From: Acidimicrobiales bacterium
GTDB taxonomy: Bacteria; Actinomycetota; Acidimicrobiia; Acidimicrobiales; CADCSY01
Reading direction: 5' to 3'
Assembly (NCBI GenBank): GCA_035512495.1
Contig: DATKDW010000036.1
Location: forward strand, 1 to 40,142
DNA: 40,142 bases
Below the pieces are notes generated by a model. That model was given only the letters and a program-made list of their open reading frames with translations. It made no database searches and had not been told where the DNA came from. This document shows, piece after piece, positions 35,131-36,225 of the stretch (position 1 is the first letter of the stretch; every line of letters starts with the position of its first letter). A program made the position numbers and the translations under genes.

Positions 35131-36225
35131 TCAGAGGTCGAGCTCCGGGTAGTAGCGCTCGGCGCCGCGCTGGCGGACCTCGCTGAGCCAGTCGCTCTCG
35201 TAGGGCCACTCGTGCTCCCGGCCCTCCACCGGCCCCTGCCAGAACCGCTCGAAGGGGCCGGTGCCGGGGGAGGCCATCGACCACGCCTGGCGCTTGTAGG
35301 AGAAGTTGTCGGGCTGCAGGCGGTGGGCCTCCCGGAAGTGGCCGATGGCCTCGTCCTCCCGGCCGCCCCGCCACAGGTGCTGGGCCAGCTCGAAGTGGGC
35401 CGCGCCCTCGGCCTCGGCGCGGCCGCGGGGGGCGGATCGGGTCACGACCTCGTCGGGGGAGAGGGCGTAGGGGCTCTCGGCCCCCCGGTCGACCCAGTCG
35501 CGGAGGGCATCCACGTAGGCCTCGGGGTCGGTCTGGATCTTCGAGGCCTCCACCACGATGTCGCGCATGTGCTCCGGGAAGCCCTCGGGTGGGGGACCAC
35601 CCCGCGGGCGGTGCTCGCCGGGGAAGGCAGGCTCGGCGGGCCGGACGACGACACCTTCCTCGTCGATCCAGATCCCGTTGGGGATGTTCACGACGCCGAA
35701 GCGCTCAGCCATGGCGTGGCCCACGTCGACCAGGGACGGGTGCTCTGGCGAGGCGGCCTCGATGTAGGGCCGGCACGCTTCGGGCCCCATCGTGTCCATC
35801 CCGACGGTGACGATCTCGAGGCCGAGGGGGTGGAGCTCGGAGCGCAGCGCCTGCCACACGGGCAGGTCACGGGCGCAGCCTCAATAGGGCGCCCAAGCGA
35901 CGAGGAGCACCTTCTGACCCCGGAGCGAATCGAGCCGGAACGGCCGGCCGTCGAGGTCGGGCAGCTCCAGGTCGGGGGCCACGGCCGACGGCAGGGCGTG
36001 GCCGCTCAGGGTGGCAGGGCCGAGGGCGGAGAGCCCCACGGCGTCGTCGGTCACGAGCGGCATGCCGAGGTGCTCGGCGACGGTCACCACATCGACCTCG
36101 CCGTCGGCCACGCCCTCGGGCAGCGGCACGCAGATCTCGCCCCGGCAGGCCCCCTCGGGCTTGAGGGCCCAGCCCGTGTCCGCTTCGAACGTCTCGACCG
36201 GGACGCGGAGGGTCTTGAGGATCAT
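35131..36225 (-). CDS. Redoxin-domain selenoprotein (TGA decoded as selenocysteine)
   Basis: The frame from ATG 36225 to the stop at 35131 has 365 codons and is interrupted only by TGA at codon 115 (35881-35883). Both sides are one ResA/TlpA-like redoxin: before it LPDLDGRPFRLDSLRGQKVLLVAWAPY, then Sec115-G116-C117, then ARDLPVWQALRSEL, later the conserved cis-Pro loop NIPNGIWIDEEG. The TGA falls exactly where the redox-active Cys of thioredoxin folds lies, giving WAPY-U-G-C. A stem-loop with the right distance for a bacterial SECIS follows. The C-terminal ~130 residues are TPR-like (LAQHLWRGGREDEAIGHFREAHRLQPDN). N-terminal C27 and C32 may add a second redox pair. Standard gene callers will split or truncate it. 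It lies 32 bases downstream of the SDR gene. Confidence 0.88.
35850..35866 (-). promoter_or_regulatory. Candidate bacterial SECIS stem-loop
   Basis: In the transcript, CCUGCC-CGUGU-GGCAGG forms a perfect 6-bp stem with a 5-base loop containing GU. The loop lies 21-25 bases after the UGA, inside the window in which SelB-dependent SECIS apical loops are found. Outer GCGC/GCGC pairs can extend the stem on both sides of an internal loop. It also encodes residues of the redoxin, as is usual in bacteria. Confidence 0.75.

Follow-up and report, generated by a model that had tools for sequence, protein, structure and literature searches.

In a stretch of 40,142 nucleotides from an Acidimicrobiales bacterium (contig DATKDW010000036.1; the whole stretch is called the window here), a minus-strand gene with one in-frame UGA almost certainly encodes a genuine selenoprotein, a ResA/TlpA-like redoxin in which UGA-115 would be decoded as selenocysteine (Sec). 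Decoding of this codon as Sec is supported by the match of the joined protein to the curated family model NF041054, the sel genes of the same genome, the presence of either TGA or Cys codons at position 115 of homologues, and the fit of the downstream hairpin to the bacterial SECIS model. With this evidence the selenoprotein reading of the original prediction holds. The features of the gene are collected in Table 1.

Table 1. Features of the selenoprotein gene in the window
Feature	Position	Strand	Evidence
Complete selenoprotein gene, ResA-like WAxxUGC family	35131..36225	minus	TGA-as-Sec translation; NF041054 match
N-terminal domain, residues 1-78, with Cys27 and Cys32 (GACRGEICVP)	35992..36225	minus	Cys identical in 36/36 copies
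ResA/TlpA-like thioredoxin-fold domain, residues 83-196	35638..35979	minus	Pfam; PDB ResA/TlpA by sequence and fold
In-frame UGA, codon 115, putative Sec	35881..35883	minus	TGA or Cys codons in homologues
bSECIS-type hairpin, CCUGCC-CGUGU-GGCAGG	35850..35866	minus	Published-model fit; MFE; loop conservation
C-terminal TPR-like segment, residues 275-307	35305..35403	minus	TPR_2, E 3.4e-5, 24.1 bits

Translation of the minus strand from the ATG at 36225 to the terminal TGA at 35133-35131 meets a single internal TGA and gives a product of 364 residues when this codon is read as Sec. Re-reading of the minus strand bore out the positions originally given for the open reading frame, the TGA and the stem-loop. 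The WAPY-U-GC motif occupies residues 111-117 of the joined protein, in agreement with the family motif WAxxUGC. The joined protein scored 537.6 bits against NF041054 (WAxxUGC_long, "ResA-like WAxxUGC motif-containing protein"), an NCBIfam model with a curated cut-off of 300 bits, and the alignment covered profile positions 1-353 of 354 and residues 1 to 363 of the protein. The two same-frame open reading frames had been proposed to form one redoxin, and because both halves match this single curated full-length model, the split arrangement is not a chance one. Ordinary gene calling would split this WAPY-U-GC redoxin gene, as had been anticipated.

Within the joined protein, the Pfam families AhpC-TSA and Redoxin matched residues 82-196, and comparison with PDB sequences aligned ResA and TlpA structures to residues 83-198, placing Sec115 on the first active-site Cys. 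Fold comparison agrees with ResA/TlpA for the redoxin domain, the only part that the weak AlphaFold model supports (built from 7 sequences; mean pLDDT 57.5, with about 63-89 in residues 1-80 and poor quality near the active site). The TPR_2 match near the C terminus lies under Pfam's cut-off of 27 bits. The ResA model NF002854 gave 52.5 bits, below its curated cut-off of 170, and the CxxC active site of ResA/TlpA oxidoreductases is replaced by U-G-C, with the second thiol at +2, not +3.

A search of the source genome, a draft of 2.8 Mb in 97 contigs that is 96% complete, identified all of selA, selB, selC and selD, the set expected of a bacterium that makes selenoproteins. The selA gene is directly followed by selB on contig 25, and a tRNA-Sec with anticodon TCA lies at the end of a contig other than that of the window; within the window itself, Rfam and ARAGORN found nothing. 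SelD, encoded on contig 83 (L018:1501-2424) by a gene that carries a TGA in frame within GAGUAGK, is itself a selenoprotein. With a G+C content of 73-76%, the sel loci resemble the window (66-74%) in composition.

Across the class, 256 of the 395 genomes sampled had a selA match above the cut-off, and 111 of the 395 contained relatives of the WAxxUGC protein. Sec use is therefore common in this actinobacterial class, and the original description of Sec in an actinobacterial U-x-C redoxin as rare was overstated. The TGA form of the gene tracks selA: among 109 genomes of the class, selA was found in 89 of the 93 with the TGA form vs 1 of the 16 with only a non-TGA form (Fisher p 6e-14, uncorrected for phylogeny). 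The four TGA-form genomes without a selA match have listed completeness of 70-96%, and some of them may reflect assembly gaps. One genome, represented by locus L059 (G162:C34), is the sole one with only a Cys-form relative (WASWCGC) in which selA is nevertheless present. Its selA match (E 2.9e-181) is far stronger than any other in the class and may represent contamination or transfer.

The hairpin that follows the UGA has a perfect 6-bp stem and a 5-nt loop. It had rightly been described as perfect, but the distance of 18 bases originally given was counted from the U of the UGA; 14 nt separate the codon from the stem and 20 nt separate it from the loop. The published model of bacterial SECIS elements requires a 3-9 nt loop at a distance of 16-37 nt downstream of the UGA, a stem of 4-16 bp, a G among the first two loop bases, in most cases with G or U next to it, and an MFE of -7.5 or lower (PMC13188914). 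The window hairpin fits this model throughout, with G as the second loop base and an MFE of -16.5 kcal/mol for the 38-nt stretch that holds it. Compared with shuffled GC-rich sequence, however, it is mildly more stable and not exceptional (z -1.1 to -1.8), so its stability alone is no proof, and the proof lies in conservation among homologues. With the window's own copy excluded, all 53 Sec forms have G at the second loop position and G or T at the next, and 52 of them retain all five inner stem pairs. Among 16 Cys forms the loop rule G[G/U] holds in 6 and the stem in 9, although these counts are not independent because the two sets are drawn from different lineages. The loop-encoded residue is only Val or Gly in Sec forms; Ala, Leu and Gly are found among the Cys forms. 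In four related loci, CTG..CAG is changed to TTG..CAA, a synonymous and compensatory change that keeps the pairing and probably represents one event. The family thus offers a good comparative test of the bacterial SECIS rules, as matched Sec and Cys forms occur in one class, with the loop G and the stem retained where the codon is UGA and relaxed where it encodes Cys.

An alternative in which the UGA is read by ordinary suppression as Trp or Cys, or under a reassigned code, would accord with Cys being the residue in the non-TGA homologues. It is nevertheless most improbable, as TGA also serves as the ordinary terminal stop of the same gene, all four sel genes are present in the genome, the TGA form follows selA across the class, and only under TGA does the SECIS loop rule hold without exception. 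These observations argue for insertion of Sec at codon 115.

Codon 115 is TGA or a Cys codon in every homologous locus that was read, in line with what the original prediction had proposed to look for. Of 36 close copies, the window copy included, 34 have TGA and the other 2 have TGC. A further 34 more distant loci were hand-picked: the 14 chosen for lacking a stop all have TGC/TGT there, and the 20 chosen for TGA have TGA, with no other codon in any of them. Cys27, Cys32 and Cys117 are invariant in the 36 close copies. Decay of the downstream half was looked for, and the region after the TGA was instead found to be conserved through the last residues. The split that standard gene callers would produce, and the draft assembly of 97 contigs, might suggest that the gene has decayed and that the TGA is a real stop or a sequencing error, with the two ORFs unrelated or truncated. 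The homologues refute this explanation and leave it a negligible probability: the identical TGA recurs in 34 of the 36 close copies and in most of the distant ones, the downstream half is conserved, and Cys codons are the only alternatives.

Six relatives found by a contig scan are 56-77% identical and are titled Acidimicrobiales, Acidimicrobiaceae or Ilumatobacteraceae, with two implausibly titled Bifidobacterium instead. These relatives point to the same group for the organism of the window. The latter loci (L020 and L022) come from metagenome-assembled genomes titled Bifidobacterium breve, and their copies are nearly identical to the Acidimicrobiaceae/Ilumatobacteraceae loci L021 and L023; on this sequence likeness, the Bifidobacterium breve titles are probably wrong. 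The genes neighboring the selenoprotein gene in the window encode an SDR, an AMP-binding ligase, a GH15 and an SBP. No same-gene neighbors were found in the homologous loci, whose flanks are mostly short; only family-level matches of 28-32% occurred, in L019, L029 and L030.

In the proposed decoding, SelA would charge tRNA-Sec(UCA) using selenophosphate supplied by SelD. SelB would bind the hairpin immediately 3' of UGA-115 and deliver the charged tRNA so that translation passes the UGA. By its inferred chemistry, the product would be a thiol-disulfide oxidoreductase or peroxidase of the ResA/TlpA-like kind. Its Sec115 would act as the attacking nucleophile on the substrate and its Cys117 as the resolving thiol of a selenenylsulfide U-G-C center. 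The Cys27/Cys32 pair may pass reducing equivalents to or from this center. The protein is probably cytosolic, since no signal peptide was seen by eye in the joined protein. ResA and TlpA, unlike this predicted location, are not cytosolic. We tentatively raise the possibility, which we consider less probable than its converse, that Cys27/Cys32 and Sec115-Cys117 together make up a selenium/thiol relay within a single molecule of a cytosolic redoxin that bears a TPR. If true, such a relay would set the family apart as an enzyme type of its own and not merely a Sec version of ResA.

The description of the gene as an unannotated selenoprotein overstated its novelty, given the curated NCBI model and the UGC-type redoxin already present in the 2008 GOS survey. 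That survey reported "Prx-like (UGC-containing)" selenoproteins, counting 46 forms with Sec against 855 homologues with Cys, and found them more common in non-marine samples (PMC2398784). In a review of 2026, a "UGC-containing TlpA disulfide reductase family" is among the entries (PMC13188914). Both entries share the UGC motif in an AhpC-TSA/TlpA fold with the window protein; they are likened to it by description, not by sequence, and may include shorter relatives. A literature search on the motif name WAxxUGC, or on NCBIfam with selenoprotein, found no papers, and the deep-Sep paper makes no mention of ResA, TlpA, UGC or Acidimicrobi.

A second, shorter group of Sec-containing WASWUGC paralogues was observed in other genomes of the class (L069, L073, L078 and similar). 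The shorter paralogues (e.g., L069 and L078) have the same hairpin and the N-terminal Cys pair but the motif WASW-U-GC, and are about 30-42% identical to the window protein; two that were scored on NF041054 reached 276.9 and 236.8 bits, both below 300. ResA and TlpA (e.g., PDB 1st9, 4nmu and 1jfu) resemble the window protein in the redoxin domain, whereas the latter has Sec for Cys, U-x-C in place of C-x-x-C, extra N- and C-terminal domains and no membrane anchor seen by eye. With the members of NF041054, in contrast, it shares the whole length, the UGC motif and the N- and C-terminal extensions, with no notable difference. Because UGC-type redoxins have been on record since 2008, a full-length NCBI model exists and selA is common in the class, the gene is, as judged from sequence, a genuine but ordinary selenoprotein of an already catalogued family; its source actinobacterium is confirmed as a Sec user, and the gene itself is no surprise there.
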